Assembly (NCBI RefSeq): GCF_003202235.1
Contig: NZ_MASU01000003.1
Span: 124,001 to 188,000 of the forward strand
Length of the DNA stretch: 64,000 nt
Source of the DNA: Prauserella flavalba
GTDB taxonomy: Bacteria > Actinomycetota > Actinomycetes > Mycobacteriales > Pseudonocardiaceae
Direction of reading: 5' to 3'
In this document: positions 4,993 to 11,306 of the stretch, one piece after another
Numbering within the stretch: position 1 is the first letter of the stretch
Layout: every line of letters starts with the position of its first letter
The notes under the pieces: model-generated
Seen by the model: the letters and a program-made list of their open reading frames with translations, nothing else
Databases searched by the model: none
Told to the model about the DNA's origin: nothing
Program-made: the position numbers and the translations under genes

Positions 4993-5838
4993 TCAGCGCT
5001 TGCGGTTGCGGAGGGTTTCGATCACGTCGTCGTCCCAGCGGTGGGTGCGGATGAGGCGGTAGCGCTCGCCCGCCACCCACATGTACGCCTCGGCCTCGGT
5101 GCGGTCGCCGATCAGGTCGGCCTGCCGCAGCATCCGCACCACCGGCTCGTACTCCGTCTCGTACCAGCGCGCCGCGATCGTGACGCGGTCGAGGAACGCG
5201 CCCTCGTCCTGCATGAGCCGGAAACCCCACGCCTCCACGTGCTCGCCGAGCTCCGCGTAGTCCCACGGGTCCGACAGCACGATCGCCGCACGTGCCTGCC
5301 CGGTCAGCGGCACGCGTTCGAGGAACAGCCGCCGGTAGTCCTTGACGATCAGGTCGCCGCGGTAGCGGATGCCGCTCGGGTTGAGCTTCGTGCGCACCTC
5401 GGTGACGTGGGCCTCGATCGACTCCAGCCCCAGCGCGTGCGCCACCGACACCCGGTGGTGGCCGTCGATGACGAAATGCAGCTCACCGATCCGGTACACC
5501 TCGATCGGCGGGATGGCCTCGCCGCGGCGGCTCGCCAGCGCGAGCCGTTCCCAGCGCTGCCTGACCCGCCCCGACGTCGGGCGGAACCGACGGTCGAAGT
5601 CCCGGCCCCGGTTGACGCTGCCCACGATCGAGTCGAGCCGGGTCACGCGCAGGCCGATGCGGCGCTCGCCCTCCCAGCCCAGCGCGTCGACCACCTCGTC
5701 GAACGGCAGCATGATGTTGACGTCGTCGGGTTCCCTGCGCAGCCAGGTCGCCAGCCGCGACAGGACCTGCCTGCGGCGGGCGCGCAGGAAGTCGTGCTCC
5801 GCGTCGGCCCTCGGGAACCCGGTCTCGCGCGAGCTCAC
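4993..5838 (-). CDS. ParB/sulfiredoxin-fold nuclease-like protein
   Basis: 281-aa cytoplasmic protein. The centre holds a ParB-N-like block: PPIEVYRIGELHFVIDGHHR (about residues 105-124), where the GHHRV box replaces the GxxR/GERR core of true ParB. It is not a chromosome-segregation ParB, because the HTH domain expected downstream is absent. The GTG start at 5838 overlaps the stop of the upstream phosphoesterase (GTGA), so it is the last gene of the corA-led minus-strand operon. The function is unknown; a nucleotide-dependent or nucleic-acid role is only suggested by the fold. Confidence 0.65.
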   Translation of the reverse strand: MSSRETGFPRADAEHDFLRARRRQVLSRLATWLRREPDDVNIMLPFDEVVDALGWEGERRIGLRVTRLDSIVGSVNRGRDFDRRFRPTSGRVRQRWERLALASRRGEAIPPIEVYRIGELHFVIDGHHRVSVAHALGLESIEAHVTEVRTKLNPSGIRYRGDLIVKDYRRLFLERVPLTGQARAAIVLSDPWDYAELGEHVEAWGFRLMQDEGAFLDRVTIAARWYETEYEPVVRMLRQADLIGDRTEAEAYMWVAGERYRLIRTHRWDDDVIETLRNRKR

Positions 5839-6488
5839 GGCACTCCCACCCCTTGCCTGCCGAGGTCGAGGACGTGGGCGCCGACGACGTTGCGCACCCG
5901 TGTCTCGCCCAGGTGGTGTGCGCGCACCTTCTCGCCGTGCGGGTGGATGTGCCCGTGCAGCAGCCAGCGCGGGCGCAGCCGCTCGACGGTCCGGTGCAGG
6001 CAGTCGAACCCCTGGTGCGGCCGGTCCTCGCGGTCGCCCACCCCGCGCGGCGGTGAATGGGTGAGCAGCACGTCGACGGCCGAGCCGCGCGCCGCGCGCA
6101 CCAGGCGCCGGGCACGCCGGGCCTGCTGGCGCTGCGTCCACTGGTTGGGGCCCTCGTTGTAGCGGATCGACCCGCCGAGGCCCGCGATCCGCAACCCGGC
6201 GACCTCGACCACCCGCCCGTCGGCGTTGACGCCGCCGCAGGGGCCGGGCCACCGGGCCGGGAAGCCCGCGCGGAACACGACTCCCCGGTAGCGGGTGTAC
6301 CCGGTGAGGTCGGGATCGTGGTTTCCTGGCACGAACACAAGCGGTTTCTCCAGCGTGTCCGCGAGGTGTTCGAGGTAGTCGAACGGCAGGTCGCCCGCGC
6401 CAAGGACGAGGTCGACCGAGAGGCTCTGCGCGCAGTCGGTCCAGAGCTTCTCGTCGACCTCGTCGGCGACCACCAGCGCTCGCGGCAT
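5835..6488 (-). CDS. Calcineurin-like metallophosphoesterase
   Basis: 217-aa phosphoesterase with the dinuclear metal motifs in order: VLGAGDLPFDYLEHL (GD), VFVPGNHDPD (GNHD), VLLTHSPPRG (catalytic-side His) and WLLHGHIHPHG (GHxH). The first motif is unusual: ALVVADEVDEKLW instead of the common DxH. I chose the ATG at 6488, which starts MPRALVVADE; the reading frame extends upstream but without homology. It lies 17 bp below the 38-aa membrane gene and overlaps the ParB-like gene by 4 bp. Substrate (nucleotide, phosphodiester or protein) cannot be told. Confidence 0.75.
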   Translation of the reverse strand: MPRALVVADEVDEKLWTDCAQSLSVDLVLGAGDLPFDYLEHLADTLEKPLVFVPGNHDPDLTGYTRYRGVVFRAGFPARWPGPCGGVNADGRVVEVAGLRIAGLGGSIRYNEGPNQWTQRQQARRARRLVRAARGSAVDVLLTHSPPRGVGDREDRPHQGFDCLHRTVERLRPRWLLHGHIHPHGEKVRAHHLGETRVRNVVGAHVLDLGRQGVGVP

Positions 6489-6505
6489 AGGGCCAGAGTA
6501 GGCCG

Positions 6506-6622
6506 CTATTGCGTCCCGAGCGCGTAGTCGGGGTTCTTCGCGATGACGGCGACGACCACGACGATCCAGGTGACCGCGGCGGCCAGCGCCCAGAACTTGA
6601 GGTTGGTCAGCATGCGGGGCAT
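6506..6622 (-). CDS. 38-aa single-span membrane protein in the corA operon
   Basis: A very short gene. ATG at 6622 is preceded (minus strand) by GGGAGA at about 5 nt, and it ends in TAG. The peptide starts MPRMLTNLKFW, has one continuous hydrophobic span (about residues 10-28, rich in Ala and Val) and a soluble tail KNPDYALGTQ. The positive N-terminus predicts N-in, C-out. It is 34 bp after the corA stop and 17 bp before the phosphoesterase start, all on one strand. I do not recognise the family. A small accessory subunit or regulator of CorA is a reasonable guess, not shown. Confidence 0.6.
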   Translation of the reverse strand: MPRMLTNLKFWALAAAVTWIVVVVAVIAKNPDYALGTQ

Positions 6623-6656
6623 GGCATTCTCCCAGTCGCAAATCGAAGATTTCGGG

Positions 6657-7745
6657 TCAGAGCCAGCGGTTCTTCCGGAATATTCGATAAAGCAGCAGAC
6701 AGATGATGAGAATGACGGCGACGATCATCGGATAGCCGTAACGGGAATGCAGTTCCGGCATGTAGTCGAAGTTCATGCCGTAGATCCCGGCCAGCGCCGT
6801 GGGCACCGCGATGATCGCCGCCCACGCGGTGATCTTGCGCATGTCGGTGCTCTGCTGGAGCGTGATCTTGGCCAGCGTCGCGTCGACGAGCGTGGTGAGC
6901 AGCTCGTCGAAGGACTCGACCCGCTCGGCCACGGTCGTGACGTGGTCGTGGACGTTGCGGAAGTACGAGCGCACGTCGTCGGGCACGAGCCGGGTGTAGC
7001 CCTCCGACAGCCTGCGCAGCGGCGTCGCGAGCGGCGACACCGCGCGGCGCAGCTCCAGCACCTCGCGCTTCATCAGGTAGATCTGCTCGGAGGTGACCCG
7101 CGTCCTCGGCGCGAAGACCTCGGTCTCCATCTCGTCGATGTCGTCCTCGATCTTGTCGGTCACCTCGAGGAAGTGGTCGACGACGTGGTCGGCGATCGCG
7201 TGCAGCACGGACGCGGGCCCCGGCACGAGCCGCTCCGGGTCGGCGTCGAGCTCCCGGCGCAGGTTGGCCAGCCCGGTGTGGTTGCCGTGCCGGACGGTGA
7301 TGATGAAGTCGGTGCCGAGGAACGCCATCAGCTCGCCGGACTCGACGATCTCGTTGGCCGTGGTGGGGGACTCGTGCTCCACGTAGCGGACCGTGCGGAA
7401 CACCATGAACAGCGTGTCGTCGTAGCGCTCCAGCTTCGGCCGCTGGTGGGCGTGCACCGCGTCCTCGACGGCCAGCTCGTGCAGGCCGAAGGTCTCGGCG
7501 ACACCCTGGATCTGCTCGGCGTCCGGCTGGTGCAGGCCGATCCAGACGAAGCCCTCACCGCGGTCGCGGACCTCGCGGATCGCTTCGGCGTGCGTCCACG
7601 GCCCAGGGCGGCGGACGCCGTCGACGTACACCCCGCAGTCGACCACGTAGGCCGACGGCGGCACGGGCTTCGGCGGGGCGACCGCGCGCGCCGCGCGGCC
7701 GTTGCCCCGGCCGCGCAGGCCACCGAGGGAGGGAATCGCAGGCAT
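6657..7745 (-). CDS. corA: CorA-family magnesium/cobalt transporter
   Basis: 362-aa divalent-cation channel of the cytoplasmic membrane. It has a large cytoplasmic alpha/beta domain (residues about 30-290), a long stalk helix, and two C-terminal membrane helices. The selectivity signature YGMNFDYMPEL lies at the end of the first helix, and the protein closes with the basic IFRKNRWL tail. In mycobacteria corA lies next to sugC on the opposite strand; here five other genes separate them. The ATG is preceded by AGGAG. The 5' region carries a candidate leader peptide (7837-7911) and a hairpin (7804-7827), suggesting Mg-dependent control as in enterobacterial corA and mgtA leaders. Confidence 0.93.
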   Translation of the reverse strand: MPAIPSLGGLRGRGNGRAARAVAPPKPVPPSAYVVDCGVYVDGVRRPGPWTHAEAIREVRDRGEGFVWIGLHQPDAEQIQGVAETFGLHELAVEDAVHAHQRPKLERYDDTLFMVFRTVRYVEHESPTTANEIVESGELMAFLGTDFIITVRHGNHTGLANLRRELDADPERLVPGPASVLHAIADHVVDHFLEVTDKIEDDIDEMETEVFAPRTRVTSEQIYLMKREVLELRRAVSPLATPLRRLSEGYTRLVPDDVRSYFRNVHDHVTTVAERVESFDELLTTLVDATLAKITLQQSTDMRKITAWAAIIAVPTALAGIYGMNFDYMPELHSRYGYPMIVAVILIICLLLYRIFRKNRWL

Positions 7746-7803
7746 GGGAGATCTCCTGGCTCGTCACTGATGTGGACGATGCACCGGACGAAAGACGTGA
7801 GAC

Positions 7804-7827
7804 GTCCGCCCGGCACTGCCAGCGGAC
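7804..7827 (-). promoter_or_regulatory. Hairpin in corA 5' leader, just after the leader peptide stop
   Basis: GTCCGC (7804-7809) pairs with GCGGAC (7822-7827), and an inner GGC/GCC pairing closes the loop. On the corA transcript it begins 9 nt after the stop of the 24-aa leader reading frame and lies about 60 nt before the corA ATG. It could be one arm of an attenuator or translation switch; no T-tract follows. Confidence 0.4.
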
Positions 7828-7836
7828 CCGGCCCGG

Positions 7837-7911
7837 TTACCGAGAGAGCACGTGCTCGGCCCAGGAGGGAACGCCGGCTGAACTAGGGAGCGGACTATCG
7901 CCACTACTCAT
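7837..7911 (-). CDS. Candidate 24-aa leader peptide upstream of corA
   Basis: ATG at 7911 is preceded by a very strong ribosome site (AGGAGGTGAG, 7921-7930 complement). It opens a 24-codon frame, MSSGDSPLPSSAGVPSWAEH then VLSR, ending in TAA at 7837. The stop lies about 90 nt before corA. Three proline codons and an early acidic residue recall Salmonella MgtL, whose proline-dependent translation senses Mg2+. That mechanism is known only for enterobacterial leaders; its use here is inference. The excellent ribosome site with no long gene behind it is the main evidence. Confidence 0.5.
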   Translation of the reverse strand: MSSGDSPLPSSAGVPSWAEHVLSR

Positions 7912-8050
7912 CGTGCGTTCCTCACCTCCTCAGGCCGAAGGGTGGTGTTACTCGCGTTGACGCACCGCGCGCCAATGGTCAAGGGTACTCCCCAACATCA
8001 CTGGACGTCGCCGCAGGGCGGTGTGACGTTACCGGCAAGGAGGCTCAGCG

Positions 8051-8554
8051 GTGCAGTTCGGGCGGTACTACGAGGAGTTCGAGGTCGGCGCTGTCTACAA
8101 GCACTGGCCCGGGAAAACGGTGACCGAGTACGACGACCACCTCTTCTGCCTGCTCACGATGAACCACCACCCGCTGCACATGGACGCGCACTACGCGGGC
8201 GAGACCACCGACTTCGGCAAGAACGTGGTGGTGGGCAACTACATCTACTCGCTGCTGCTCGGGATGTCCGTGCCCGACGTCTCGGGCAAGGCCATCGCCA
8301 ACCTGGAGGTGGAGTCGCTCCGGCACATCAAGCCGACCTTCCACGGCGACACCATCTACGGTGAGACCGAGGTGCTGGAGAAGACGCCGTCGAAGTCGAA
8401 GGACGATCGCGGCGTGGTGTACGTGGAAACCCGCGGCTACAAGCAGGACGGCACCGTCGTGTGCACGTTCCGGAGGAAGGTCATGGTTCCCAAGCGTTCC
8501 TACGGTGAGGCCCGGGGCGGCGAGCAGCCGGGCCGTCCGGTGCCCCATGAGTGA
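8051..8554 (+). CDS. MaoC-family hot-dog dehydratase
   Basis: 167-aa hydratase with the MaoC active-site layout: the Asp-containing EYDDHLFCLLTMNHHPLHMD (residues about 26-45), corresponding to D-x4-NPxH, and hydrophobic hot-dog strands after it. It should add water to, or remove it from, an acyl-CoA thioester. GTG start follows AAGGAGG with good spacing. It overlaps the DUF2332 gene by 8 bp and lies two genes before an acyl-CoA synthetase, consistent with fatty-acid or branched acyl-CoA metabolism. The exact substrate is unknown. Confidence 0.78.
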   Translation: MQFGRYYEEFEVGAVYKHWPGKTVTEYDDHLFCLLTMNHHPLHMDAHYAGETTDFGKNVVVGNYIYSLLLGMSVPDVSGKAIANLEVESLRHIKPTFHGDTIYGETEVLEKTPSKSKDDRGVVYVETRGYKQDGTVVCTFRRKVMVPKRSYGEARGGEQPGRPVPHE

Positions 8555-9662
8555 TCTGGACAGAATCAAGCGCCGCCTGCGCCGGTTCGCCGAGCAGGAC
8601 GCGGGCGGCACGTCGCCGCTGTACGAGCACCTGGCGGCGCAGGCGGCCGAGGACGACGAGATCGCCGGCCTGCTGACGGCGGCTGACCCGGAGGACGCGC
8701 AGCCGACGCTGCTGCTGGCCGCCGCGCACCGGCTCGTGCAGGCCGACCCGATCCACCCGCTGTCGCGCTACTACCCGTCGCTGGGCGGGTTCGACGGCGT
8801 CGACTCGCAGACGTGGCCGCTGTTCCGCGAGTTCCTGCTCGAGCGGGCCGACAGGGTGCGCGAGCTGGTGAGCACGCGGTTCACGCAGACCAACGAGGTG
8901 CGCAGGGCGACGATCCTGTATCCGGCCGTGGCGATGGTCGCCAAGCAGGCCAAGGGGCCGAAGGGCGCGGTGGGCCTGCTGGAGGTCGGGTGCAGCGCGG
9001 GGCTGCTGCTGGGCCTTGCCTCCTACGGCTACCACTACCAGTGCGACGGCGGCGAGCAGATCGCGGCGGGCCCGGCGCGCACGCCGGTCGGGCTGCACTG
9101 CGCGCTGGAGCTCGGCGAGGGCGCGGCGCTGCCGAAGGTGCCGAAGAAGCTCGCGGTCGGCGCGAAGGTGGGGCTCGACCGGTCGCCGGTGGACAGTGCC
9201 GACGAGGACGAGCTGGCGTGGCTGGAGGCGTGCGTGTGGGCCGACCAGCCCGACCGGATCCGGCTGCTGCGCACGGCCGCGGCCGCGCAGCGCAAGGACC
9301 CGCCGGAGCTGGTGACCGGCGACGCCGTGGCCGACCTGGCCTCGGCGGCCGCGCGGGTGCCCGCCGAGCTGCCGCTGGTGGTGCTCACCAGCTGGGTGCT
9401 GGCCTACCTCTCCGCAGAGCAGCGCTCCGCGTTCGTGTCCGCGCTCGCCGAGGTCGCCGCTGACCGTCCACTGTGGTGGGTCACGGCGGAGCCGTACGAG
9501 TCGGCGCTCGTCCACGTGCTGCCCGGTCGCGACGAGCTGGCGTACAGCCGCACCACGCAGGCCGTGCTCGGCGTGGCCACGTGGAACGGCGACACGGTGC
9601 AGGCGCAGGCGCTCGCGCTCGCGGCGTCTCATGGTCAGCGCATGACCTGGCTTGCCCGGTAG
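8547..9662 (+). CDS. DUF2332-family protein
   Basis: 371-aa soluble protein of the DUF2332 family, common in actinobacteria. Family-like stretches are LVQADPIHPLSRYYPSLGG near residue 70 and the Gly-rich VGLLEVGCSAGLLLGL (about residues 140-155), which looks like a Rossmann methyltransferase motif I (E/DxGxxxG). A later ELPLVVLTSWVLAYL resembles motif IV. It may therefore be an S-adenosylmethionine-dependent enzyme, but no activity is established. The ATG overlaps the end of the MaoC-like gene by 8 bp. Confidence 0.7.
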   Translation: MSDLDRIKRRLRRFAEQDAGGTSPLYEHLAAQAAEDDEIAGLLTAADPEDAQPTLLLAAAHRLVQADPIHPLSRYYPSLGGFDGVDSQTWPLFREFLLERADRVRELVSTRFTQTNEVRRATILYPAVAMVAKQAKGPKGAVGLLEVGCSAGLLLGLASYGYHYQCDGGEQIAAGPARTPVGLHCALELGEGAALPKVPKKLAVGAKVGLDRSPVDSADEDELAWLEACVWADQPDRIRLLRTAAAAQRKDPPELVTGDAVADLASAAARVPAELPLVVLTSWVLAYLSAEQRSAFVSALAEVAADRPLWWVTAEPYESALVHVLPGRDELAYSRTTQAVLGVATWNGDTVQAQALALAASHGQRMTWLAR

Positions 9663-9680
9663 CCCACCGCTGGACAGGAT
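9652..9680 (+). promoter_or_regulatory. Promoter for leaderless acyl-CoA synthetase mRNA
   Basis: TTGCCC at 9652-9657, a 17-bp spacer, then CAGGAT at 9675-9680. The ATG begins 6 nt after the -10 element, leaving no room for a ribosome site, so the transcript is probably leaderless. Confidence 0.45.
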
Positions 9681-9686
9681 GGGGTG

Positions 9687-11306
9687 ATGGCAGTCACCCC
9701 GGAGCACGCGGACACGTGGTACACGCCGCTCACCCCGCTGTCGTTCCTGCACCGTTCGGCCGAGGTGTTCCCCGACAAGGTCGCGATCGCCTACGGGGAG
9801 CGCCGGCTCACCTACCGCGAGTTCGCCGCCGAGGCCACGAGGGTCGCCGGTGGCCTCCGAGCGAGCGGGATCGAGCCCGGCGACCGCGTCGCCTACCTGC
9901 TGCCGAACATCCCCGAGATGCTCGTCGCGCACTTCGCGGTGCCGCTCGCGGGCGGCGTGCTGGTGGCGATCAACACGCGCCTCGCGCCCGCAGAGATCCG
10001 GTACATCCTGGAGCACTCCGGCGCGAAGATCCTGGTGGTCGACGCCGCCCTGCACGGCTCGGTGCCCGCCGACGCGCCCGTGCGCGAGATCGTGACCGTC
10101 ACCGACCCCGCGTCGGGCGCGAGCCCGGACCCGGGCGTCGGCGGTGTCTCCTACGCCGACCTGCTCGCGCGCGGCACTGACGATCCGCTCCCGTGGACGG
10201 TCGCCGACGAGCGCGCCACGATCTCGATCAACTACACGTCGGGCACCACGGGCAAGCCCAAGGGCGTGATGTACCACCACCGCGGCGCGTACCTGAACTC
10301 GCTGGCCGAACTGGTCCACTCGCGGCACACCCCGGAGTCGCGGTACCTCTGGACGCTGCCCATGTTCCACTGCAACGGCTGGTGCACGACGTGGGCGATC
10401 ACGGCGATCGGCGGCACGCACGTGTGTCTGCGTGCGGTGGATGCCGCGGAGATCTGGCGGCTGCTCGACACCGAGGGCGTCACGCACCTCAACGGAGCGC
10501 CGACCGTGCTCAACACGATCGCCAACTTCGAGGGCGCGCACCCGCTCGCCCAGGAGGTGGTGGTGACCACGGCGGGCGCGCCGCCGAGCCCGACGGTCAT
10601 CAAGCGCATGACGGCGCTCGGCGCGCGGCTGGTGCACGTCTACGGGCTGACCGAGACCTACGGGCCCTACACGGTGTGCGAGTGGCAGGAGGGCTGGCCG
10701 AAGCTCGACGTGGAGGCGCGCAGCAAGCTGCTGGCCAGGCAGGGCGTGGGCATGGTGGTGACCGACGGAGTGCGCGTGGTCGCCGAGGACATGACCGACG
10801 TGCCGAGGGACGGCGTCACGATGGGCGAGGTCGTGATGCGCGGCAACAACGTCATGTCCGGCTATTTCGCCGATCCGGAGGCCACGGAGAAGGCGTTCCG
10901 CGGCGGCTGGTTCCACTCCGGCGACCTGGGCGTCTGGCATCCGGACGGCTACATCGAGCTGCGCGACCGGGCCAAGGACATCATCGTGTCGGGCGGCGAG
11001 AACATCTCGACGATCGAGGTGGAGGCCGCCGTCGACTCGCATCCGGCCGTGCTGGAGGTCGCCGTGGTGGGCGTGCCGCACGAGAAGTGGGGCGAGCGGC
11101 CCAAGGCGTACGTGGTGCTGCGGCCCGGCGAGCAGGTGAGCGCCGAGGAGCTGCTGGAGCACGTGCGGGGGCAGATCGCGCGGTACAAGGTGCCCGACGT
11201 CGTCGAGTTCGTCGGCGAGCTGCCCAAGACCTCGACCGGCAAGATCCAGAAGTTCCAGCTGCGCGAGAGGGACTGGGCCGGCCGGGTGAGCCGCGTCCAG
11301 GGCTAA
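9687..11306 (+). CDS. Acyl-CoA synthetase (AMP-forming, FadD/AlkK type)
   Basis: 539-aa member of the ANL superfamily that activates a carboxylic acid as acyl-AMP and then acyl-CoA. Motifs: P-loop YTSGTTGKPKGVM (about residue 183), aromatic/gate region PMFHCNGWC, A5 VYGLTETYGPY, A7 HSGDLGVWHPDGYIEL, A8 RAKDIIVSGGENIS and A10 lysine PKTSTGKIQKF. The pattern is closest to medium/long-chain AlkK-like ligases. ATG at 9687 is chosen over the adjacent GTG because it sits 6 nt below the -10 element. It follows the MaoC-like gene, so a shared acyl-CoA pathway is plausible. Confidence 0.88.
   Translation: MAVTPEHADTWYTPLTPLSFLHRSAEVFPDKVAIAYGERRLTYREFAAEATRVAGGLRASGIEPGDRVAYLLPNIPEMLVAHFAVPLAGGVLVAINTRLAPAEIRYILEHSGAKILVVDAALHGSVPADAPVREIVTVTDPASGASPDPGVGGVSYADLLARGTDDPLPWTVADERATISINYTSGTTGKPKGVMYHHRGAYLNSLAELVHSRHTPESRYLWTLPMFHCNGWCTTWAITAIGGTHVCLRAVDAAEIWRLLDTEGVTHLNGAPTVLNTIANFEGAHPLAQEVVVTTAGAPPSPTVIKRMTALGARLVHVYGLTETYGPYTVCEWQEGWPKLDVEARSKLLARQGVGMVVTDGVRVVAEDMTDVPRDGVTMGEVVMRGNNVMSGYFADPEATEKAFRGGWFHSGDLGVWHPDGYIELRDRAKDIIVSGGENISTIEVEAAVDSHPAVLEVAVVGVPHEKWGERPKAYVVLRPGEQVSAEELLEHVRGQIARYKVPDVVEFVGELPKTSTGKIQKFQLRERDWAGRVSRVQG

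Follow-up and report, generated by a model that had tools for sequence, protein, structure and literature searches.

The 64,000-nucleotide stretch of Prauserella flavalba DNA considered here (contig NZ_MASU01000003.1, positions 124,001 to 188,000; the whole stretch is called the window below) contains, on its minus strand at 6657..7745, the gene corA for a 362-amino-acid CorA-like Mg2+ transporter with the YGMNF motif. The gene was assigned from the frame list and its match to PF01544 (E 5e-62), and its product is 98% identical to the CorA of Prauserella endophytica, the closest named genome among the matches listed. Upstream of the corA start at 7745 and of the corA ribosome site AGGAG, read in the window sequence at 7753..7757 (minus strand), lies a leader open reading frame (ORF) of 24 codons, MSSGDSPLPSSAGVPSWAEHVLSR, at 7837..7911 of the same strand, placed from the window sequence, the frame list and the relatives. 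It stands behind the ribosome site AGGAGGTGAG (7921..7930, minus strand), which is perfect over 9 nt. An initial annotation, made from the sequence alone, had described this frame, its ribosome site and a gap of about 90 nt to corA, and the description holds, with the ORF stop 91 nt before corA. It had also ranked the ribosome site among the strongest; AGGAGGTGA followed by an ATG 4–12 nt further on occurs at only 12 places in the 8.1 Mb genome, this one included, and the site is therefore exceptional. On balance, the comparisons described below favour a leader ORF belonging to the Mg2+ regulon, whose translation would set a conserved stem, named P1, and thereby the expression of corA in response to Mg2+.

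Conservation of the leader frame

The loci compared comprise 30 CorA loci found by searching 60 relatives' genomes and the best 80 of 566 named loci. Of the 101 corA loci L001–L101, 95 have a leader ORF preceded by a strong ribosome site. The six without a called leader include two that were left unjudged, L049 with masked bases and L100 with an uncertain start, and the ORFs of L024 and L084 were set by hand. Some loci of the two sources come from the same genome, and removal of 18 near-duplicates gave a set of 77 leaders. The ribosome site is nearly invariant in their alignment A1, from which L072 was left out. Among the nine Mycobacterium and Nocardia corA loci (L102–L110), eight have no candidate, and the longer, unlike frame of L103 was not counted as a leader.

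The N-termini of the leader peptides fall into groups, among them MSSGDSPLPSS in Amycolatopsis and Prauserella, MSNDPHPAST in Saccharothrix, MSKDPHPAST in Lentzea, MDPAPGSST and MPTAPGCSSC in Pseudonocardia, and others, and the ORFs range from 18 to 39 codons. In three leaders of the Prauserella type (L035, L045 and L008) the ORF is lengthened by in-frame repeats, each about 18 nt long and built around CAGTAC, whose copy number differs. Acidic residues and proline together make up 31% of leader residues 2–9; the corresponding figures are 15% for the genes of the window, 21% for CorA N-termini and 11–14% for the other two frames.

For a test of the register, whichever start codon came first behind the ribosome site was used, with preference for ATG and without any peptide criterion. 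Measured from there, the distance to the P1 arm has 12 different values, and the register is the same in 75 of the 77 leaders, the exceptions being L028 and L072. The frame thus behaves like a translated one, and the alignment of corA upstream regions, which had been set beforehand as a test of the initial annotation, finds the frame conserved within the Pseudonocardiaceae (75/77). In two groups the changes in the N-terminal part fall mostly at third positions, with synonymous drift in the Lentzea/Saccharothrix group and in one Pseudonocardia group; the Actinokineospora-type group and one Pseudonocardia group show no excess of synonymous change.

R1, a covariance model describing the element, matches 120 of 150 family genomes, once per genome. 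The model was built from this family, so that matches within it are expected by construction, while a position before corA was not built in; all 120 matches precede a CorA gene (29/29 by coordinates and 91/91 by tblastn on fetched stretches). Across the phylum R1 matches 3 of 296 genomes, that of P. flavalba included. Short frames are common, and 42 frames of at least 20 codons overlap positions 5500–10000 of the window, which could suggest a chance ORF, a strong ribosome-like site followed by a short frame without function. This is contradicted by the conservation found in the tests of the frame, of stem P1, of the AGU codons, of R1 and of the M-box pattern described below; given that the family as a whole conserves the ORF, its frame, the ribosome site and a stem, chance is excluded as an explanation, its probability being practically negligible.

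Stem P1 and the AGU codons

The conserved structure is a stem that pairs the ORF itself with the spacer. Its 5' arm lies on the codons R/S-V-P of the leader ORF, and its partner segment lies behind the ORF. In the window the 5' arm is at 7867..7878 (minus strand), within the codons around G-V-P, as judged from the covariation in 76 sequences, and the 3' arm, from alignment and covariation, is at 7818..7829 (minus strand), past the stop. There, 7878–7872 pair with 7824–7818, including one G-U pair, and 7869–7867 pair with 7829–7827, with a 2×2 internal loop between the two helices. The initial annotation had instead pointed to a hairpin after the stop. The complementary segments GTCCGC (7827–7822) and GCGGAC (7809–7804) are indeed there, forming a local hairpin at 7804..7827 on the minus strand that overlaps the 3' arm of P1, but this is not the conserved structure: it is seen in the genus of the window only, being read in L001–L003 and not in L004 or L005.

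The 3' arm of P1 begins past the stop in 75 of the 77 leaders, overlapping it in L007 and L036, and its end lies 14–145 nt from the corA start used, at 40–95 nt in 70 of the 77. In the 76 sequences 79.5% of the cells of P1 are paired, compared with 36–45% when the partner is slid by 1–3 columns, and double changes occur in all 13 of the 13 pairs. The covariation score is 0.317 as against at most 0.134 for the slid partners, and none of 500 shuffles, which are uncorrected for relatedness, scores as high. Examples of the paired arms are GCATCCC/GGGATGC (L026), GCGCCCC/GGGGCGC (L099) and CCGCTTCC/GGAAGCGG (L008). RNAalifold alone predicts five of the pairs. The lengths of the loops within P1 vary widely. 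In three Pseudonocardia leaders (L083, L087 and L097) a strong local hairpin (GGGACRCGA...TCGTGTCCC) could involve the 3' arm instead, perhaps as an alternative to P1 particular to this lineage.

The second conserved feature is a rare serine codon, AGU (AGT in the DNA). It accounts for 185 of the 372 serine codons in the 77 leaders; in the corA genes at these loci the figure is 12 of 1036 (Fisher p ~1e-108, the sequences not being independent), and in the window genes it is 3.2% of the serine codons. As controls, AGT makes up 7 of 77 serine codons among codons 2–25 of 43 window genes, and 2 of 12 in the other 11 ORFs with such a strong site. In 71 of the 77 leaders an AGT stands exactly 10 nt before P1; in the window this is codon 10 (7882..7884, minus strand), 10 nt ahead of the first aligned base of the P1 arm, with further AGT codons at 2, 3 and 6. 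By ribosome geometry, P1 would just be touched when this AGU occupies the A site. Codon 2 of group A varies among AGT, AGC, TCC and TCG, while AGT is found at codons 3, 6 and 10 in 17, 18 and 15 of 18 unique sequences. The AGU codons are kept as codons. Outside the Amycolatopsis/Prauserella type, 45 of 52 leaders hold only one or two of them. The prolines of the peptide, which the initial annotation had taken as its telling feature, are not what is conserved; the AGU codon, the frame and stem P1 are.

The Mg2+ link, the proposed mechanism and its rivals

No Rfam family reaches threshold in the window, and in the loci of four relatives the single match at E up to 1 is to a miRNA model and lies far below that model's cut-off. 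The M-box Mg2+ riboswitch (RF00380) was not found in the window, in this genome or in 23 of the 25 family genomes searched, this one included. A link to the M-box comes from family f8, taken to be the Mycobacteriaceae from its gene content. A first R1 match in f8 looked like chance, its downstream protein occurring in 1 of 41 genomes, and an order-wide search then gave five such matches; L113 is a weak match. A pattern was made from the group-A ORF start, comprising AGGTGAGG, a spacer and MSxxDS with AGT at codon 6. In the 201 f8 genomes it matches 12 times, in 8 genomes, and its reversed form not once, and at all 12 loci an M-box lies just upstream on the same strand. Downstream of these loci are genes for small uncharacterised proteins (some with an ileS-like gene beyond), NRAMP-type-like transporters and one MgtE-like protein, all named by eye. 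In the 150 genomes of the window's own family, all 24 matches of the pattern are at corA, 22 overlapping R1 matches and two lying in a genus without them. A looser pattern matches six times in the 296 genomes of the phylum, namely at the corA leader of the window and at five sites behind M-boxes.

The same trend is seen in a set gathered independently of the pattern, which consists of 34 M-box loci (30 of 36 matches plus 4 of 6) with the ORF chosen by ribosome site alone. An ORF of up to 60 codons is found in 27 of the 34, and 25 of these 27 hold AGT; in the remaining seven the sequence behind the site lacks a start, stops at once or runs on as a long frame. In these upstream ORFs (uORFs) AGT provides 51 of 126 serine codons, compared with 31 of 514 in the longest downstream frames, and it is found mostly at codons 2 and 6 (13 and 18 cases). 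P1-like pairing in them is suggestive only, with a mean z of −0.59 (23 of the 27 used), compared with −0.96 in the corA leaders and 0.10 in the control. The N-terminus MSxxDSP is common to both families, and the peptide MSSSDSPDRSPGGVPS of L149 is identical to MSSGDSPLPSSAGVPS of the window at 11 of 16 positions in an ungapped alignment by eye. In one genome of the window's family (G021; loci L114 and L119), an M-box precedes genes resembling a PLP decarboxylase and an AdoMet decarboxylase, by eye those of polyamine synthesis, and an AGT-rich leader ORF is present there too.

Since the same ORF start stands behind M-boxes at 12 of 12 f8 loci, the link of the leader ORF to magnesium is better supported than the initial annotation could have known. 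That the pattern occurs at M-boxes in f8 and at corA without an M-box here suggests one and the same leader ORF, accompanied by the riboswitch in one family and standing alone in the other. The Mg2+-sensing leader peptide originally proposed is thus upheld as to a conserved leader ORF with a covarying stem before corA, its link to Mg2+ being strengthened by the M-box loci, and it is given up as to the prolines as its conserved feature.

The region available for the corA promoter is bounded by a divergent gene for a MaoC-like hydratase (8051..8554, plus strand; frame list and family match). GAGTACCCT or a near variant occurs upstream of the leader ORF in most of the aligned sequences of the relatives, and in the window it corresponds to TACCCT at 7982..7987 (minus strand), a putative −10 element of the consensus TAnnnT. 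If TACCCT is this element, transcription of corA would start near 7975. In L012, where the leader is lost, this element adjoins corA, which argues that the corA transcript includes the leader ORF. A congener of L012, L118 (from the genome of L056), keeps its leader; the loss of a whole leader within one genus provides a natural experiment. Between the promoter element and the leader ribosome site the alignment shows a conserved block (about 7940–7975, minus strand), which reads CGTCAACGC in group A and GTGTGTGAGCGA.TCCACC in group B and perhaps forms a hairpin. A pairing of this block with the leader ribosome site (CACC/GGUG, in one group) is uninformative because it is nearly invariant. On the other side of corA, between it and a metallophosphoesterase gene, a 38-amino-acid frame with a hydrophobic stretch is found at 6506–6622 (minus strand), and several relatives have a similar-looking sequence behind corA.

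In the proposed mechanism, the corA transcript would begin upstream of the 24-codon ORF, a member of a family tied to the Mg2+ regulon. The ribosome would be the reader, and the speed of its passage over the AGU codons and the Asp/Pro stretch would decide whether P1 is folded or opened. The state of P1 would in turn decide the expression of corA, by analogy with the leader ORF corL before enterobacterial corA. Judged from the gene and the context of the ORF family, Mg2+ is the likeliest signal, in that low Mg2+ would slow the ribosome, P1 would stay and corA would be on. The last step is probably either termination by Rho or a change in how accessible the corA ribosome site is, and the data do not choose between them. 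The leader segments contain more C than G, which is by itself no test of Rho. Consensus folds behind P1 differ among three groups of 18, 16 and 9 leaders, and alternatives to P1 are found only in single lineages, the hairpin of the window being an example.

Several observations weigh against this mechanism or narrow it. The loci L012, L014, L023 and L027 have no leader, and L189 and L190, both of one genus, retain the ORF start but have lost P1 and most of the spacer, their frame overlapping the corA start, so that neither the leader nor P1 can be indispensable. R1 is unmatched in 30 of the 150 family genomes, at least one of which (G007, the genome of L030) does carry the leader ORF. Selection at the level of the peptide is likely but modest, because a conservative test for synonymous excess in the N-terminus gives p values of 0.14, 0.03, 0.036 and 0.68 in four groups. 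When folding is unconstrained, P1 is in the minority, with a mean probability of 0.30 and a median of 0.06. P1 of the window is imperfect and such folding prefers other pairings there; in L001 the 3' arm pairs downstream with a probability of 0.72, and in P1 with 0.00.

Tests of three candidates for the output step were also negative. In a classical attenuator a third arm would compete for the second arm of P1, and the duplex energies of such arms equal those of shuffles (p 0.28; 75 of 77 leaders), so that this arrangement is rejected as a general feature. Blocking the first arm leaves access to the corA ribosome site unchanged (p 0.94; 66 of 77 leaders, ten loci with an uncertain corA start and L072 having been left out), which does not favour a ribosome-site switch. 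The segment after the second arm might also mask the corA ribosome site; a swap test of this on 59 of 76 leaders, those with short tails or no clear corA ribosome site having been dropped, gives p 0.13, and in 15 of the 59 the segment ranks in the top tenth of leader windows. The masking is good in some leaders of the Amycolatopsis/Prauserella type and of group B and poor in Pseudonocardia and Lentzea/Saccharothrix. Finally, in the mycobacterial uORF2 leaders compared below, which undergo Rho-dependent termination, the main site is upstream of uORF2 (PMC12810186).

Other explanations have to be set beside this one. One possibility is that the product itself matters, as a small protein acting in trans with, for instance, CorA or another Mg2+ transporter as its target. 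D'Halluin et al. put forward such a role for mycobacterial Rv1805A (PMC12810186), and P1 would then be a separate feature. A shared N-terminus in two families and the synonymous drift seen in Lentzea/Saccharothrix and in one of the Pseudonocardia groups would fit such a protein, but in the C-terminal half no residue beyond the stem codons is seen kept across groups, the length varies from 18 to 39 codons, the rare AGU is kept where other serine codons would give the same protein, and residue changes in the arm track the RNA pairs, for example in compensated replacements of Val by Ala or by Ile. A small protein as the main product is accordingly considered unlikely. An RNA-only sensor, in which the leader RNA would bind a metal or another ligand and the ORF would merely be part of the output, appears rather improbable: the strong covariation of P1 and the conserved block between the likely transcription start and the leader ribosome site speak for it, while the frame is kept over 12 spacings, the AGU codons are kept outside P1, neither the window nor the loci of the four relatives gives a plausible Rfam match, and the loop lengths of P1 vary widely, unlike those of an aptamer.

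Rare codons are the classical choice for control codons, as in leu leaders, and the conservation of AGU as a codon might indicate an attenuator responding to the charged AGU-reading tRNA-Ser, through which serine or general starvation, rather than Mg2+, would feed into corA. This is very doubtful, as AGU-holding ORFs stand behind Mg2+ riboswitches and before genes that are ion-transporter-like or uncharacterised, none of them serine-like by eye, and as most leaders outside the Amycolatopsis/Prauserella type have just the one or two AGU codons noted above. A wider form of the favoured mechanism is possible, if tentative. The AGU-rich leader ORFs would be one family across the Mycobacteriales, a portable, ribosome-read Mg2+ sensor that stands alone at corA in the Pseudonocardiaceae and elsewhere in tandem with the M-box. 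Wobble decoding of AGU before a stem would then be the Mg2+-sensitive step, and mycobacterial uORF2 would be a sensor and not a small protein.

Comparison with known leader systems

A short leader ORF with early acidic residues and prolines, placed ahead of the gene for a Mg2+ transporter, recalls mgtL, the proline- and acidic-residue-containing leader ORF of enterobacterial mgtA. The prolines, however, are not the conserved feature here, and the transporter family differs.

The enterobacterial corA gene has a leader ORF, corL, whose translation is inverse to corA expression, with Rho involved (PMC11552253, which also mentions mgtL, and the Salmonella work cited there). The two leaders have in common the gene, a short ORF in the 5' leader that is overlapped by a stem, and a proposed read-out through translation of the ORF. 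As differences from corL, no conserved competing stem was found in the leader described here, and its ribosome site and start are strong, whereas the start in E. coli is UUG. The AGU codons are, in contrast to corL, a feature of the actinobacterial leader family. The corA motif of Stav et al. (2019; PMC6429828) is likewise a structured leader before corA; it is reported there only from gamma-proteobacteria and metagenomes, and the window leader matches no Rfam family.

The closest likeness is to the mycobacterial M-box leaders, in which a conserved and translated uORF2 (Rv1805A, Rv1535A and Rv0115A) with a proline at position 7 has been described, called mycobacteria-specific and left without a clear role (D'Halluin et al. 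2026; PMC12810186); Rv0115A or Rv1535A is also named in PMC10824437 and PMC11895460. The statement of the initial annotation that no actinobacterial equivalent is described was thus not quite right. The likeness to uORF2 and Rv1805A extends to the strong conserved ribosome site, the short ORF, the conserved N-terminus, Pro7 and the association with Mg2+ genes. The window leader has Pro7 and the N-terminus MSSGDSP behind the ribosome site AGGAGGTGAG, and differs in that there is no M-box upstream, in that the gene is corA and in that P1 ties the ORF to the spacer. The M-box ORFs of f8 are taken to be the uORF2 family by their place, N-terminus and Pro7, and the portions of the uORF2 paper drawn on make no mention of AGU codons.

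No description of a leader ORF at an actinobacterial corA was found among the matches listed in the open-licence literature, and the present one would be the first. It would extend the mycobacterial uORF to a second family, and because the uORF stands there without a riboswitch, its part can be studied alone. The conservation at the level of codons makes it possible to test sharply which of peptide, codons and RNA carries the function, and whether ribosomes read Mg2+ outside the Enterobacteriaceae. The leader ORF is probably part of how these bacteria set their magnesium uptake. In relation to the known systems, it is, as far as its sequence relationships indicate, a variant of leader-ORF control that belongs with a uORF family so far reported from mycobacteria only, placed outside the riboswitch setting.
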